A DNA stretch of 38,762 bases. It comes from Candidatus Zixiibacteriota bacterium. Lineage in GTDB: Bacteria > Zixibacteria > MSB-5A5 > GN15 > FEB-12. Shown piece by piece: positions 12,889 through 19,567 of the stretch. Every line of letters starts with the position of its first letter. Position 1 is the stretch's first letter. Made by a program: the position numbers and the translations under genes. The DNA lies in contig JAWXAN010000046.1 in the NCBI GenBank assembly GCA_034439475.1, positions 1-38,762 on the forward strand, written 5' to 3'. Under the pieces are notes generated by a model, which was given only the letters and a program-made list of their open reading frames with translations, ran no database searches and was not told where the DNA came from.

Positions 12889-14094
12889 TCATGGCTTCTT
12901 CTTAGGGCCAAAACCCGCCCGGAAAGCGGGCAAAAGCGAAGTGCGGTATCGAGTAAAATAGATAGCCGCCAAAACAATATATATGGCGGCGATTTCGAGG
13001 CGTATGCTTTCAACCAGTAACTGGGCCATAAAAAGCGCAAAGAGAGCGCTCGCCTCAAGCCGGCTCATCCGCAAATTTACGAAAACTGCCACGGCAAAGA
13101 GCGACTGGGCCGCAGTAAGATACAGTTCATGGTCCTGAACTAAGTCAAGTTCAAACGGCATAATCTTGCCTCCGGAAATCGCATAGACCAACGGAATCGT
13201 ACCGACAAGCAGGGTCCAGTGGTTGACTTTTGAGGAGATAAGAGCCCTCATTGCTAAGCTTGCCGAGCCGCGAAGGGTCCATGTGGCGGCAATCACAAAC
13301 TCAGGAAGCTCGCTTGCTAGTGGAGCAAGCCACTGCACAAGCAGAAATTCATTTATTTTCAACAAGCGCCCGGATGCAACAAGCGATTCCGCAAAAGGTT
13401 CGGCAACCAAGAAAATCACCGCTCCCGAGAAAAGAAAAAGGAGTCCGGTGCACACTCTCCGTGGAACAGTTTTCATATTTGCGACAATTTTAACCGGCCC
13501 CACTAACTCCGGCTCAGCAGATTCCATCTGGGCGGTGCGGCGGGCGTACATGACATACAGCCCAACAAGTATGACAGTATCAACAAGATTGAGGCTTCCT
13601 TTGAGAGGAATAGTGAAGGAATAAAGAGTTGCAAGCGCGAGATAGAAGATTTCAACGCGCTGGCTCTCTTCAAGCACAATCTGTTTTTTCTTCTTGAAAA
13701 AAACATAGAGAAATAGCACCACCGGCCAGCCCAACCCGACCAGCAGTCGATTGGCTCCGGTCATATTTGCCAGGGCGTACGCTTTTTGTGAAGGGTCATG
13801 CGCAGAATTCCAAGTAAAGACAAAATCGACCGCATATTCAGGAAGCACCGCAATGAGAGCAAGAATTGCGATGGCAAGTCCCTGTGAGATATCGATCTGC
13901 GCGGCCTCGGCAGCCCATGACAACATAAAAGCCGCGCCGAAAATAGCAACACCGGATATAATCGCGCCGGTAATCGGAGAAATGTGAGCGTGTGTCAACC
14001 CTAGCCACGAACCGGGCAGTGTGCTAACAATCGCAAGTATTAGTATAATATAGAGCGATGGCGTAATCGCATAGTGCTCCCGCTCATGACTCAT
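12889..14094 (-). CDS. sodium/calcium exchanger family membrane protein
   Basis: 401 residues, ATG at 14094, no clear ribosome site. The two inverted alpha-repeats of the CaCA (NCX/CAX) superfamily are visible. Repeat 1 is LALIAVLPEYAVDFVFTW ... ALANMTGANRLLVG (about 80-125). Repeat 2 is WLAPLASELPEFVIAATWTL ... ISSKVNHWTLLVGTIPL (about 250-300). Each keeps the central Pro-Glu essential for ion binding. About ten membrane helices are predicted by eye, and the length fits bacterial Na+(or H+)/Ca2+ antiporters. The usual G-T-S-x-P in both repeats is altered (ALIAVLPE, PLASELPE), so ion specificity is uncertain. It appears monocistronic. Confidence 0.85.
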   Translation of the reverse strand: MSHEREHYAITPSLYIILILAIVSTLPGSWLGLTHAHISPITGAIISGVAIFGAAFMLSWAAEAAQIDISQGLAIAILALIAVLPEYAVDFVFTWNSAHDPSQKAYALANMTGANRLLVGLGWPVVLFLYVFFKKKKQIVLEESQRVEIFYLALATLYSFTIPLKGSLNLVDTVILVGLYVMYARRTAQMESAEPELVGPVKIVANMKTVPRRVCTGLLFLFSGAVIFLVAEPFAESLVASGRLLKINEFLLVQWLAPLASELPEFVIAATWTLRGSASLAMRALISSKVNHWTLLVGTIPLVYAISGGKIMPFELDLVQDHELYLTAAQSLFAVAVFVNLRMSRLEASALFALFMAQLLVESIRLEIAAIYIVLAAIYFTRYRTSLLPAFRAGFGPKKKP

Positions 14095-14144: not shown

Positions 14145-15050
14145 TCAGCCGCGAATTATCATGTTGACAATATCTTTACGAAGCAACACACCGACAAGGT
14201 TGTCGTTTTCGGTTACGAAGACGCGGCGGACATCTTTGAAAATCATCATCGCCGCGACTTCGACGATGCGTGTCTCGGGCGTCGTGACTTCGTATTCTTT
14301 GCGATATAACTGAGCTACCTTGATTTTATCCTGCTGCTTGAGCAGTTCCTCAAAGGGCTCTACTTCCATTGAATAATTTAGATTCGAAATAAGCGATTTG
14401 TAATCCGGCAAGGCCGCCTTTATAAGGTCGCGGTCGTTGATGATACCGATAAGTTTGTTTTTATCATCAACGACCGCCAAGCCAGACAGTCGATAACGGA
14501 ACATCCGATTGGCAACTTCGCGAAGGCTGTCATCGGGAGTAACGCAGGCGACATCATGACGCATGACATCTTTGACCATAAGTTCCTTGTCTATTGTGAC
14601 ATTTGCATCGGATATGAGCTTTATCAGGTCGGCCGATTTTTCAGCGGTAAGAATATTGTTCATAATGCCGGGTTTGCGCGCAAACGAAGCTAGTCCGGAG
14701 AGAGTTTGCAAATAAAGCTTTGCGATAGTCGAAGGAGTTAAGAGCAGACACACTACTTTGAGCGGCTCATTGTCGACAGTTTTGGCGCTCAATCCCTGTT
14801 TTGAAAGGCCAATGAGAATGTACATCTCGCTTACGGCATCGGTTCGCGCATGAGGAAAAGCAAAGCCGTGTCCGTATGCGGTACTTTCGATCTCTTCTCG
14901 CTCGAGAACAGAACGCACGACTTCATCGTAATCAAATTTTACCCCCTCGCTTTTTAACAAATCGAGCAGTTCTTTGACGGCGTCGATAAGCGTGCCGGCA
15001 TGCAGCTTCATATTTATCCGGCGTTCGGCAAGCAAATTCGCAAGTTTCAT
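14145..15050 (-). CDS. PTS EIIA (PtsN-like) domain fused to tandem CBS domains
   Basis: 301 residues. ATG at 15050 forms an ATGA overlap with the DUF502 stop, so the two are translationally coupled. Residues 1-150 match a PtsN/fructose-type EIIA domain with the phosphorylation site GFAFPHARTD (His67) and preceding ESTAYGHG. Residues about 157-300 are two CBS motifs (VKDVMRHDVACVTPDDSLREVANRM; SGLAVVDDKNKLIGIINDRDL; a second half ending RKDIVNMIIRG). CBS pairs usually bind adenine nucleotides. A phospho-relay or energy-state sensor that controls a membrane partner is a reasonable inference, but no other PTS gene lies in the window. Confidence 0.88.
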   Translation of the reverse strand: MKLANLLAERRINMKLHAGTLIDAVKELLDLLKSEGVKFDYDEVVRSVLEREEIESTAYGHGFAFPHARTDAVSEMYILIGLSKQGLSAKTVDNEPLKVVCLLLTPSTIAKLYLQTLSGLASFARKPGIMNNILTAEKSADLIKLISDANVTIDKELMVKDVMRHDVACVTPDDSLREVANRMFRYRLSGLAVVDDKNKLIGIINDRDLIKAALPDYKSLISNLNYSMEVEPFEELLKQQDKIKVAQLYRKEYEVTTPETRIVEVAAMMIFKDVRRVFVTENDNLVGVLLRKDIVNMIIRG

Positions 15051-15703
15051 TCTCTGACTCCCTGGGATGACGACTGTGTGCCCAATGCTTCGGCGTTTTC
15101 TCGTGCGCGAAATGTTCTCGGAGCCGCAACGCCGCCCGAAACAATAAATTTAATCCCATCCTCGATACTTATATCCACAACAGTCACATCCTCGGACGGG
15201 ACAAGAATTATCATTCCCGAAAGAGGTGTGGGCGTTGACGGAATGAAAACAGAAATCAGCCTTGATGTCTTCTCCGCCATCGTCATCTCCATTCGGTTGG
15301 TAACAAATCCTATACTATATATTCCCTTGCGGGGATATTCCACAATAACGACGTCATCGAAAGACTTCTCGCCAGATGATGTCATCGCTTCCAGCAACTG
15401 TTTCACGGACGAGTAAATCGGGCGAATCAACGGCAGTTTCGCGAGTATAGCTTCCCACACACGGTAGAATTGATTACCAAGGAAGTTTCGAGTAAGTATG
15501 CCGGCAGTAAAAATGAGCAGAATGGTGGCAAGAAGTCCAAGCCCGGGGATATAAAAGCCGAAAAGACGCTCAATGAGCGGGCTCAGAACGCCGTCAATTG
15601 TCTGGAAAAGAAATTTCAGCACAAGGACGGTGATGATAAATGGAACCACCACCAGAACGCCGCTGAGAAAATACCGCTTGATGAGATTAAGGAGCTTTTT
15701 CAT
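15047..15703 (-). CDS. DUF502 family membrane protein
   Basis: 218 residues, ATG at 15703. Two membrane helices (about 14-35 and 52-72) frame DGVLSPLIE, and the family pattern follows: ILAKLPLIRPIYSSVKQLLE, VVIVEYPRKGIYSIGFVTN, SVFIPSTPTPLSGMIILVP and MTMAEK. The length matches bacterial DUF502 proteins. Function is not established for the family. The 4-base overlap with the EIIA-CBS gene suggests that the soluble regulator acts on this membrane protein. Confidence 0.9.
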   Translation of the reverse strand: MKKLLNLIKRYFLSGVLVVVPFIITVLVLKFLFQTIDGVLSPLIERLFGFYIPGLGLLATILLIFTAGILTRNFLGNQFYRVWEAILAKLPLIRPIYSSVKQLLEAMTSSGEKSFDDVVIVEYPRKGIYSIGFVTNRMEMTMAEKTSRLISVFIPSTPTPLSGMIILVPSEDVTVVDISIEDGIKFIVSGGVAAPRTFRARENAEALGTQSSSQGVRE

Positions 15704-15815: not shown

Positions 15816-17354
15816 TTATTTGACCGGAAAGCCGAAAACAGACGGTAAATTCGCCACAAATGCGACAAGCGGCGCCGGATACACACCAAAGAGAATAAGA
15901 CTGCTGGCGCACACAAGCATAACGCATTGGAGCGCTAAAGATGGCCTATGCTGAAATGGGGCCGAAACAAAATCTGGCCGCTTGACAAAAAAGCTCCTGA
16001 TAATTCTGATAACCGCGAGCAGTCCAAAAAACGAAGACAGTATTATTACCGCATAGAGAAGATACAGCCAAGCAAAACGTCCGTCACTCGCCGCTATTCT
16101 AAAACCTTCCTGAAGCAGATCGAAGCGTGAGATGAACCCTGCCGTGGGAGGAACACCGATCATGGCGAGAAGAAAAATAATCAGTGAAATAGTGGCCGAT
16201 GGCGAGTCATGATACAAACCACTGATAGTGACTGAAGAGCCAAGTTCCTGTTTCTGACGAAGAAATCCGGTAATCGCCAATGCGCCGAGAAAAGGGAGTG
16301 TCTGAATTATAAGAGTGAAGCCAATCGATGTCATACCCGCCGCAGACAACGAAAGCGTTCCAGCCAGACAGATTCCTATCTGAATAATCCAGAGATGGTA
16401 GATCGTTGTCGGCAAATCTCTGTGACTGAATAATCCCACAGTACTATACAGAATGGCTACTGCCGCTAACAGTCCAAGCGTTGTACCCCAGTCATTTGGA
16501 GCCATAACTGGATCGCTGAATGCGAATAGCGTGTTCATGAAGATTTTTATGAATCCGGCCAGCACCGCCGTCGCGATCGAAGTCTGATATATCGACCGCA
16601 GTTCACTTGGGAAAGAAGAAAACATTTCTTCACGGGCCAGGGACAGAAGCGGTAGGAATAGTTTTATGAGAAGCCCTGCGCCGATAAGCAAACTGGCGGC
16701 AAGGAGCACCGGACTAAACTCCCCGTTGAACGAAACCTGCGTCATCGCCATATTGATTTTTGCCTGAACGAGGTTGGTCGTCCCGCTCAAACCATAGAGA
16801 AGAGATAACCCGTAGGCAAATAGTGCCGACGAGAACACCCCGGTGAGCAATAGTTCTCGTCCCCTGCCGCAGGAGGAGCTTGACGCAATTGCGAAGTCGT
16901 TTGTATGAAAATACGCGCTTATGATATAGAGCGGAATAAAAATCAACTCCAATCCCAGATAGATCATTACCAACTCGTTCGCGGAGCAGACTAAAAGCGT
17001 TCCGAGCACCATCAGTAAAAGCAGGGCGTAGTAGTCTCCCTGACGATGCCCGTAACGCTTGGCTATTGATGGTACAGATGGAATAAGCCCGAGAGTAGCG
17101 CCAATCAATACTACAGTTTTGCAAAAAACCGCAAAGGGGTCATTGAAAATAATATCGCTATATCCTTGCCCATACCCAAAAACCCATAATATAATCCCGG
17201 CACACAGGAGTGAGAAAATCGCGCTGTATCCAAGCCAAAGTGAGTTACGAAATTTAGAGAAACGCCCACACAGAGCGATCATCAGACAAGTGACGGTTAT
17301 GAGAAGTTCAGGAAGAATAAAATGCGCGTTGAAAAGTGAACCGATGTTGTTCAT
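15816..17354 (-). CDS. nuoN: divergent NADH:quinone oxidoreductase subunit N-like protein
   Basis: The frame opens at a TTG overlapping the nuoK stop (17360); an ATG at 17354 is a likelier start and gives 512 residues with about 14 membrane helices. NuoN features: IYLGLELIFIPLYIISAYF with the key Glu136, FSSALFAYGLSLLYGLSGTT, GAGLLIKLFLPLL (Lys231 kept) and MIGVPPTAGFISRF. Odd points: the PFHxWaPDvYeGAPTP block after Lys231 is replaced by unrelated residues, the conserved Lys of the EAxxKYFLLG motif becomes Glu167 (after Arg166), and the Lys of the late-helix GFxxKF motif is Arg410. It is a complex I antiporter-like subunit by fold, but the proton path may be altered. Confidence 0.8.
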   Translation of the reverse strand: MNNIGSLFNAHFILPELLITVTCLMIALCGRFSKFRNSLWLGYSAIFSLLCAGIILWVFGYGQGYSDIIFNDPFAVFCKTVVLIGATLGLIPSVPSIAKRYGHRQGDYYALLLLMVLGTLLVCSANELVMIYLGLELIFIPLYIISAYFHTNDFAIASSSSCGRGRELLLTGVFSSALFAYGLSLLYGLSGTTNLVQAKINMAMTQVSFNGEFSPVLLAASLLIGAGLLIKLFLPLLSLAREEMFSSFPSELRSIYQTSIATAVLAGFIKIFMNTLFAFSDPVMAPNDWGTTLGLLAAVAILYSTVGLFSHRDLPTTIYHLWIIQIGICLAGTLSLSAAGMTSIGFTLIIQTLPFLGALAITGFLRQKQELGSSVTISGLYHDSPSATISLIIFLLAMIGVPPTAGFISRFDLLQEGFRIAASDGRFAWLYLLYAVIILSSFFGLLAVIRIIRSFFVKRPDFVSAPFQHRPSLALQCVMLVCASSLILFGVYPAPLVAFVANLPSVFGFPVK

Positions 17355-17356
17355 AT

Positions 17357-17860
17357 TCAAACCGACGTCATTTCTTCTTTGCTTGTGGCAGGCGGCTCGG
17401 ACGGCGTCTGCTCCTCTCTTTTGGATGGCGAGTGACGCGAAGCGAGCGCCATTACAATCAGTCCAAGCGCGGAGACAAGGGTCAGCAACGGCCAGACGCG
17501 CTCACGTGATGGATCCGTCTCAAGTTTATAGAGACCGATAAGCGACACACCGATGACAAGAAGAAGCCAACGCCGTTTGATCATGTTGAGAGCCGCAAGC
17601 GACTCCTTTTTGTACGTGCGCAGTACAAACAGCGCGCCGAGTAAGAGCTGGGCGGCAGACACGACCGCAATCACTATCGCAAATATCTGCCCGCTGTTGC
17701 CATCGGAGACAATAAAATGATTGAATGTCACAAAAGTCACTATCGCAGCGGTGGCCATGAGCTGTATAGAAAGCAAAACAGCCGCAGTGGATGTCCTTGT
17801 CAACGCGCCAAAGAGTCCAATCGCAAAGAGAAGTCCGCCGAATATAAGGTACTGATTCAT
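17357..17860 (-). CDS. nuoK: NuoK-like subunit with both conserved glutamates replaced and an extra C-terminal region
   Basis: 167 residues, ATG at 17860 overlapping the nuoJ-like stop (ATGA). Residues 1-90 align by eye with NuoK: LLFAIGLFGALTRTSTAAVLLSI, then GQIFAIVIAVVSAAQLLLGALFVL. The two buried glutamates essential for NuoK proton transfer (E. coli Glu36 and Glu72) are Gln33 and Gln71, each CAG in the DNA. NuoK is normally about 100 residues; here about 70 more follow, with two extra hydrophobic segments (about 96-112 and 122-138) and a Ser/Glu-rich tail. Family membership is inferred from pattern; function as a pump subunit is doubtful. Confidence 0.75.
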   Translation of the reverse strand: MNQYLIFGGLLFAIGLFGALTRTSTAAVLLSIQLMATAAIVTFVTFNHFIVSDGNSGQIFAIVIAVVSAAQLLLGALFVLRTYKKESLAALNMIKRRWLLLVIGVSLIGLYKLETDPSRERVWPLLTLVSALGLIVMALASRHSPSKREEQTPSEPPATSKEEMTSV

Positions 17861-18369
17861 TCAGTAAGTCCTTCAGAGCGACTCAGCCGAATCGCAATAA
17901 ACAGACCAGCCGAAATAATGAGAATGGCCGCTATATGCGGAAGATGGCGCTGGATTAGTTCAGTGACCACAGCTAAAGTGCCTGTATCAGTTGTTGATGC
18001 TTTCGAGAATTTCCAGATTCGTGTGCTCAGTATGCTGAACCGCACACCGAAAAGTATCAGCAGACAGATTAGGAAAACAGTCATCCCATTGATATCCTGT
18101 GGAATGGTCAGACCAAAATTGGACGATTGAGATGCCTTCGTTTTGCGGGCCTGTAAGAGAAAATATGCGGCCACACAGATACCGAGCTGAACCAGCATTA
18201 CGGTAATTGCACCGAGCGCGTACAAAAGTCCTGAGATACCGAGGAGCATTCCGATAACCGCAAATCCAGCGCGTCGGCTTTCTTTCAGGCTTACTGACAG
18301 AAGGGCGCAGAGCAAAGCTGTCGCGGCACAGACCCAGAAGAGAATGGTCGGATCTTCGGACTGCGACAT
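17857..18369 (-). CDS. nuoJ: NuoJ-like membrane protein
   Basis: 170 residues, ATG at 18369. Helices at about 9-27, 31-49, 55-76, 95-113 and 144-162. The segment LLYALGAITVMLVQLGICVAA sits where NuoJ has the LGAxFLAxVQVLVYVGA helix; the VQ is kept but the YVGA is not. Position (first of three overlapping genes, followed by NuoK- and NuoN-like) supports a NuoJ identity more than the sequence does. NuoJ normally forms part of the membrane arm near the E-channel. It is divergent, and no NuoA-I, L or M genes are in the window. Confidence 0.6.
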   Translation of the reverse strand: MSQSEDPTILFWVCAATALLCALLSVSLKESRRAGFAVIGMLLGISGLLYALGAITVMLVQLGICVAAYFLLQARKTKASQSSNFGLTIPQDINGMTVFLICLLILFGVRFSILSTRIWKFSKASTTDTGTLAVVTELIQRHLPHIAAILIISAGLFIAIRLSRSEGLTE

Positions 18370-18545: not shown

Positions 18546-18929
18546 TCATGCCATGGCAATGACTTCGATCTCGACCCGACAGTCTTTTGGCAACCGTGAG
18601 ACCTCTACAGTAGACCGTGCCGGAGGGGGGGCCGAGAAATAGCCGCCGTACACTTCGTTTACTGAAGCAAAATCATTCATATCTTTGAGGAAAATAGTTG
18701 TCTTCACAACATTTGAGAAGTCAGCGCCAGCCGCCTTGAGGACAGCCTGGATGTTGGCCATGACCTGTTTGCATTGCTCGGCCGCGGTCTCTCCCACGAG
18801 TACCATAGTTTTGGGATCAAGGGGGGTTTGCCCAGCGCAGAATATCATAGTCCCGCATGATATTTTCACCGCCTGTGAATACGGGCCGATAGCTTTGGGG
18901 GCATTTTCGGTATGAATTATTTCTCTCAT
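18546..18929 (-). CDS. ridA: RidA family enamine/imine deaminase
   Basis: 127 residues from the ATG at 18929 (AGGAG, 4 bases); the longer frame to 19046 has no site and overlaps plsC. The sequence is a complete YjgF/YER057c/UK114 domain: NAPKAIGPYSQAV (Tyr17), FCAGQTPLDP, QVMANIQAVLKAAGADFSNVVK, PPPARSTVEVSRLP with Arg105, and VEIEVIA with Glu120. These match the catalytic residues of RidA, which hydrolyses reactive 2-aminoacrylate and related imines in the cytoplasm and forms trimers. It is the third gene after cmk and plsC. Confidence 0.95.
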   Translation of the reverse strand: MREIIHTENAPKAIGPYSQAVKISCGTMIFCAGQTPLDPKTMVLVGETAAEQCKQVMANIQAVLKAAGADFSNVVKTTIFLKDMNDFASVNEVYGGYFSAPPPARSTVEVSRLPKDCRVEIEVIAMA

Positions 18930-18943
18930 GTAACTCCTTCTAT

Positions 18944-19567
18944 TCACTTGTTGTTTTTTTCGTTTTTGAGCTTCTCTATCTCGCCCATTACTTTTCTGGC
19001 GATAGTCATATACCCCTCTTTGTCGAATGGCTGACTGCCAATCCACAGCGGAGAAATCGCTGGACCAAAAGTTATTGACATTTGCCTCCTACCGAGAAAG
19101 CATTCTTTAAGCGCATTGGTGCCATGAATATAGCCGGGAATAATCGGGCAACGCGCGCGAGCGGCTATCAATCCAATTCCTGGTTTTGGTTCAAGAAATT
19201 TATCACTGAGCGAGCGCGTGCCTTCAGGGAAAATTACCAGACCGTTGCCATGGGCGATGGTGTTCAGCGAAAGATCCAAAGCTGTTCTGTCCACTGCGCC
19301 TCGTTTGACCGGAAGGGCGTTTGTCCGGCTGATAATGGCGCCAAAAATCTTATTTTTCCACAACTCTGATTTGGCAAAATAATACAGTTGCCTCGGCGAC
19401 CAGCTTCCGATAAAAAGCGGATCGAAATACGATTTATGGTTTGTTGCGAGAATGAAACCGCCTGTTCCCGGAATATGCTCCTGCCCTGAAACCGTAATTC
19501 TAAAAATGCCTTTGGATATTATCCGGCCGATTGTCCAGCCGGTATAGTAGAGAATTTTCGGTTTCAC
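18944..19567 (-). CDS. plsC: 1-acyl-sn-glycerol-3-phosphate acyltransferase (PlsC family)
   Basis: 207 residues from a GTG at 19567, two bases after the cmk stop, with no independent ribosome site, so probably coupled to cmk. Motifs: the catalytic NHKSYFDP (residues 43-50), LPVKRG (motif II region, 85-90) and FPEGTRS (113-119), followed by PIIPGYIHGTN. This is the HX4D acyltransferase family that makes phosphatidic acid from lysophosphatidic acid at the inner membrane. A cmk-plsC neighbourhood is common in bacteria. It is clear of frameshifts and of usual length. Confidence 0.93.
   Translation of the reverse strand: MKPKILYYTGWTIGRIISKGIFRITVSGQEHIPGTGGFILATNHKSYFDPLFIGSWSPRQLYYFAKSELWKNKIFGAIISRTNALPVKRGAVDRTALDLSLNTIAHGNGLVIFPEGTRSLSDKFLEPKPGIGLIAARARCPIIPGYIHGTNALKECFLGRRQMSITFGPAISPLWIGSQPFDKEGYMTIARKVMGEIEKLKNEKNNK

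Follow-up and report, generated by a model that had tools for sequence, protein, structure and literature searches.

A probable deletion-derived NuoJ-NuoK-NuoN remnant of a second complex I operon in Zixibacteria

RESULTS

Three complex I-like genes without L or M

The window (the whole 38,762-nt contig JAWXAN010000046.1 of assembly GCA_034439475.1, Candidatus Zixiibacteriota, whose coordinates are used throughout) contains three minus-strand genes resembling nuoJ, nuoK, and nuoN, with overlaps of 4 bp (Table 1). There is no L or M gene near them, and neither the quinone subunit H nor any redox subunit is encoded at the locus. The original prediction of a J-K-N set lacking L and M was borne out in the positions, strand, and overlaps of the genes and in their family matches.

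TABLE 1 Features of the J-K-N locus and its neighbors in the window
Feature	Position	Strand	Basis	Remarks
Sodium/calcium-exchanger family protein	12889-14094	-	PF01699, 2e-23	Frequent neighbor
PTS EIIA-2 with two CBS domains	14145-15050	-		Usual neighbor by synteny
DUF502 membrane protein	15047-15703	-	PF04367, 1e-32	Constant downstream neighbor of full and reduced operons
NuoN-like protein	15816-17360	-		514 aa from TTG, 512 aa from ATG at 17354
NuoN Arg412	16125-16127	-		In place of TM12 Lys
NuoN Ala263	16572-16574	-		In place of TM8 Lys
NuoN K233	16662-16664	-		Kept TM7 Lys
NuoN E138	16947-16949	-		Kept TM5 Glu
NuoK-like gene	17357-17860	-		
NuoL C-terminus relic (NuoK residues 99-148)	17417-17566	-	phmmer and hhalign	
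NuoK-like core (residues 1-98)	17567-17860	-	PF00420, 2e-10	
NuoK Gln71	17648-17650	-		
NuoK Gln33	17762-17764	-		
NuoJ-like protein	17857-18369	-	hhalign, Foldseek, and motif table	170 aa
RidA-type gene	18546-19046	-	PF01042, 1.7e-44	Upstream; start codon probably further in

The NuoN-like protein matches PF00361 (1.2e-17; 64.5 bits against a cutoff of 21.5) and TIGR01770 (7.3e-43), but its 147 bits for the latter fall below the NuoN subfamily cutoff of 333. Its AF2 model (pLDDT, 82.5; pTM, 0.85) has E. coli NuoN as its top Foldseek match, with a TM score of 0.80. The NuoJ-like protein gave only a weak single-sequence match (NF005025, 1e-3), and its AF2 model is weaker (pLDDT, 73; pTM, 0.58); the top Foldseek matches of this model are all NuoJ (E = 7e-3), and profile-profile comparison of the reduced J proteins with J from relatives having a full operon scores 99.3% (3.7e-20, hhalign). 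The TM3 motif of those full-type NuoJ proteins, AEFLAAAQVLIYVGA, is missing from the window J in the motif table. Those E-values, here and below, that come from small local databases or from pairwise hhalign are relative, not absolute.

A complete canonical nuoA-N operon is present elsewhere in the window genome, on a separate contig (C34), settling whether a full nuo operon exists in this organism, as the original prediction had proposed to check. The PF00361 proteins of the genome number four, namely the N of J-K-N and the canonical L, M, and N, and no spare L or M was found in G000, G012, G034, G067, or G022. Only 16 to 29% of residues are identical between J, K, and N and the canonical subunits of the same genome. 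No redox or hydrogenase module lies beside J-K-N, whose neighbors are the RidA, DUF502, PTS-CBS, and exchanger genes, and no MrpA N-terminal part, MrpB, MrpE, MrpF, or MrpG was found among the neighbors read.

Canonical complex I genes accompany J-K-N in the window genome and in those reduced genomes that were examined, which leaves room for J, K, and N to act as alternative or accessory subunits of that canonical enzyme. This is quite improbable: the three proteins stem from a paralogous 11-subunit system, their identity to the canonical subunits is low, and residues needed in complex I are gone from them.

An 11-subunit operon at the same site in relatives

Most relatives in the family and order carry at this site a full A-B-C-D-H-I-J-K-L-M-N operon of 11 subunits, without E, F, and G, which ends at the DUF502 gene, the PTS-EIIA/CBS gene, and, usually, the sodium/calcium-exchanger gene. 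Because a DUF502-adjacent full operon is also found in other families of the class, the 11-subunit operon is most likely the ancestral state of the locus. It had been argued originally that finding L and M in the operons of close relatives, or Glu at both buried NuoK positions, would point to misassembly or to family misassignment. Both situations do occur, L and M in most relatives and the two glutamates in the full types, but we read them as ancestral, because the cut-down operon has the same flanks and was found again in separately assembled genomes, of which one is closed. The draft status of the genome from which the window contig comes gives some opening to an assembly or binning artifact as the cause of the L/M loss, a possibility rendered negligible by the synteny of both flanks with relatives, by the intact frames and overlapping starts, and by the same cut-down in other assemblies and in the closed 2.12-Mb genome G089.

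Recurrence of the reduced operon

Reduced J-K-N sets occupy the orthologous locus in 11 genomes, the window genome and 10 others. Within family f1, to which the window belongs, these others comprise genus g13 (G012, G034, G067, and JADFPZ010000016.1) and G022 (genus g23), two genera besides that of the window. All four genomes of family f3, representing three genera, are reduced (G038, G041, G044, and G047, with the contig of the last ending inside N), as is G089, which lies outside the window order. The RidA-type gene marks the left edge of the deletion and adjoins J in the reduced f1 and f3 genomes; the PTS EIIA-2/CBS gene was not found beside the G089 cassette. A profile search among the 80 genomes of the order disclosed no further reduced form that stood out. 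The check put forward originally, conservation of the J-K-N set in related genomes, is satisfied by the 10 other genomes, which have lost one or both of the NuoK glutamates.

Two further candidates were set aside. A weak K match in G087 turned out to be spurious, and in a Nitrospirota record (L221, 7011-9413) N directly follows K, but other contigs of that genome hold further PF00361 genes, probably L and M.

Several other arrangements of complex I genes were seen. Besides the canonical operon and the J-K-N remnant, G038 (L150/L181) and G041 (L180) have a further complex I of the 11-subunit type elsewhere. Apart from its full operon, G064 (L144, 4051-7930) has a second, partial D-H-I-J-K set followed by an unidentified 273-aa open reading frame (ORF). 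The second complex I of G057 (L052, 6588-10570) seems broken, with only N, M, and part of L recognizable and without the usual DUF502 neighbor, and could reflect assembly errors. Eight Acidobacteriota records (L205, L214, L219, L239, L245, L252, L254, and L255) contain two complex I gene sets arranged tail to tail, the N of one facing the N of a J-K-L-M-N set on the opposite strand.

A NuoL relic in the NuoK tail

The NuoK-like protein had been predicted to carry an extension of about 70 residues with two hydrophobic segments. This extension is real and can be identified as a NuoL C terminus: residues 99 to 148 correspond to the final two hydrophobic segments of NuoL in the full types. The best phmmer matches of the tail are NuoL C termini (1.2e-6), hhalign scores it at 96.4% and 1.1e-9 against the NuoL C termini of f1 and at 9.7e-4 against those of f4, and its independent matches fall inside 703-aa NuoL frames. 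In the window lineage, NuoK is thus fused in frame to the tail of NuoL.

A corresponding fusion probably exists in f3 and G089. The f3 tail is closer to NuoL of f4 (7e-6) than to that of f1 (1.8e-3), the match being moderate (84%, hhalign). The G089 tail gives a weaker match (0.01), yet nearly all of its top matches are NuoL C termini, and it ends after one helix, as does the NuoL of other families in the class. Neither tail nor relic is present in NuoK of g13 or of G022.

Loss of residues in the proton path

Both buried glutamates of NuoK (Glu36 and Glu72 in E. coli) are glutamine in the window (Gln33 and Gln71), as originally predicted, and Glu occupies both positions in 51 of 51 full-type relatives. 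The TM8 Lys of NuoN, present in 60 of 60 full types, is Ala263 in our alignment, and the PFHxWxPDxYxGAP loop is lost, in agreement with the reported absence of this block (given then as PFHxWaPDvYeGAP). Of the two lysine changes claimed for NuoN, the replacement by Arg holds (TM12, Arg412), but the replacement by Glu/Arg does not, the TM8 residue being alanine. The residues described as kept, Glu136 and Lys231, are kept, and become E138 and K233 when counted from the first start (TTG). In E. coli NuoN, the K247A and K395A changes are severe and cripple the enzyme, and E133A is tolerated (PMC13073174).

Among the reduced forms of the order that were read (the residue table leaves out the incomplete N of G047), all have lost the Glu36 equivalent, and g13 alone retains the Glu72 equivalent. 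In NuoN, none has the TM8 Lys, most have Arg for the TM12 Lys, and all retain the TM5 Glu and TM7 Lys. G089 differs: its NuoN has Gly for the TM5 Glu and Gln for the TM7 Lys, retains the TM8 Lys, and has Arg for the TM12 Lys, and its NuoK has lost Glu36, with no Glu aligned at position 72. Judging from these aligned residues, the charged chain is broken in every reduced lineage, at differing points, and lineages differ in which residues they have kept and lost. At first, the TM5 Glu/TM7 Lys pair seemed the key to function, an idea weakened by G089; because both residues are lost there, not one charged pair is common to all lineages, and the module need not have retained any ion transport.

Divergence followed by constraint

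The J, K, and N proteins share 23 to 43% identity with their full-type kin, as opposed to 63 to 75% for the flanking PTS-CBS protein and 60 to 80% for comparable pairs of full operons. Within genus g13, their rates of evolution are ordinary, with dN/dS values of 0.04 to 0.21 compared with 0.07 to 0.14 for flanking genes. J-K-N is under purifying selection in g13, the only genus in which selection was measured; the window lineage has no close relative. Such a burst of rapid change, later giving way to constraint, suggests that the proteins took on a new role and are not decaying.

Complete loss of the operon is seen in G016, the sister of the window genome (support of 99/97 in the canonical complex I tree), where the RidA gene lies about 90 bp from the DUF502 gene (L177, 11548-12693). 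The cassette is therefore dispensable in that genome. The DUF502 and PTS-EIIA/CBS genes adjoin the locus whether the operon is full or reduced, and they adjoin RidA in G016.

The empty site in G016, together with the very fast divergence of J, K, and N and their loss of key residues, could be taken to mean that genes are lost one by one and that J-K-N is a decaying remnant, a transient stage on the way to such a site. We regard decay as unlikely, because the dN/dS values in g13 argue against it, the same three genes are retained in each reduction, and the reduced cassettes of the 11 genomes, one of them closed, have intact ORFs wherever a contig covers them. Moreover, the set has persisted in f3, being common to all of its genomes and genera.

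Number of reductions

Four changes are needed on a tree of the flanking genes, built by a quick method. On a canonical complex I tree (3,206 columns), the reduced genomes fall in separate places; four changes are again most parsimonious, three are forced by well-supported branches, and a single change is found in 0% of bootstrap trees. Holding the reduced f1 genomes as one clade is rejected (AU test, P = 0.0008), and G089 is an additional reduced case from another family. G012 and G022 could share a single reduction event.

A joint NuoN tree, in contrast, unites all reduced sequences (support, 99), as would be expected if a single reduction had been passed on horizontally, with recombination in the flanks that the lineages have in common. 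That grouping joins very long branches, against which the tree tool itself warns, and when NuoN is placed lineage by lineage, f3 falls outside f1 and the f1 members fall inside it. The NuoL relic resembles the NuoL of f1 in the window, that of f4 in f3, and the single-helix NuoL of other families in G089, and the relic is altogether absent from g13 and g23. Horizontal spread remains possible, but we consider it rather unlikely, and less likely than independent reductions. In the window, f3, and G089, each relic is most similar to NuoL from the kin of that lineage, and the reduction therefore probably happened several times independently.

DISCUSSION

The evidence makes it very probable that J-K-N derives by deletion from a second complex I and has been selected. 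The second 11-subunit operon lost two blocks by deletion, A-B-C-D-H-I before J and L-M after K; in the window, the latter deletion left NuoK joined to the two terminal hydrophobic segments of NuoL. Comparison with the full operons shows these steps, whereas continued assembly of J, K, and N with the NuoL tail, all of them neighbors in the membrane arm of complex I, is an inference. The last NuoL helix of E. coli anchors in the proximal membrane arm (PMC3274701) and therefore lies near the retained subunits. As an overall explanation, we favor, with moderate confidence, a selected nonredox membrane module that originated by deletion from the 11-subunit operon.

Several known systems resemble J-K-N in part. 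The 11-subunit complex I lacking NuoEFG, the second Zixibacteria copy, shares its locus, gene order, and direct homology and is its ancestor, but J-K-N has no A, B, C, D, H, I, M, or core of L, and the NuoK Glu and NuoN TM8 Lys that are invariant in the ancestor are lost in the window. The canonical NuoA-N enzyme has homologous J, K, and N subunits and a common NuoN fold, but J-K-N is without its redox arm, its quinone subunit H, and L/M. J, K, and N correspond to the C-terminal part of MrpA, MrpC, and MrpD (PMC7419157), and the TM5 Glu/TM7 Lys pair of Mrp antiporters is kept in most J-K-N lineages; unlike Mrp, J-K-N lacks the N-terminal part of MrpA and MrpB, E, F, and G, has lost the TM8 Lys, and has an N subunit closer to NuoN than to MrpD in both structure and sequence. 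The membrane modules of MBH and MBS likewise contain just one MrpD/NuoN-like subunit and none that is L-like, but J-K-N adjoins neither a hydrogenase or redox module nor homologues of MrpB/E/F/G.

The original prediction, of a complex I-derived module that has lost the usual route of pumping, is supported by comparative evidence, namely the full nuo operon elsewhere, the recurrence in 10 genomes with Glu loss, and purifying selection; the loss of pumping itself is an inference. No redox-driven proton pumping would be expected of J-K-N, because it is without H, redox subunits, L, and M and because its charged-residue chain is interrupted. That it is not a redox pump we hold to be highly likely, in the absence of activity data. 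What remains would be a stand-alone module with at most a partial ion path, serving gated ion flow or the regulation of a partner. The sodium path of Mrp has been proposed to run at the MrpC/MrpD interface by way of the TM5 Glu (PMC7419157); given the correspondence of J, K, and N to Mrp subunits, a partial ion path is plausible in f1 and f3, with G089 as the exception. Ion conduction, as opposed to a purely structural role, is accordingly a tentative proposal with slightly under an even chance of being right and no activity data behind it, and a role that is only structural or regulatory has similar odds. The broader proposal, that J-K-N, whether or not it carries the NuoL tail, has evolved repeatedly into a stand-alone complex with a nonpumping function of its own, is evenly balanced in our judgment, in the absence of data on expression, protein, or activity.

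The open-access literature searched, which leaves out most subscription journals, contains no description of a stand-alone J-K-N. If the broader proposal of a recurrent stand-alone complex is true, its repeated emergence would show the J-K-N segment to be a functional submodule of complex I that can be released from redox control. Two long-standing questions are touched on here, the modular assembly of complex I and the part that its antiporter-like subunits play by themselves. Full and reduced forms at one locus would provide natural, closely matched pairs for testing the pumping residues, and J-K-N itself is a small complex that could, in principle, be expressed and assayed directly.
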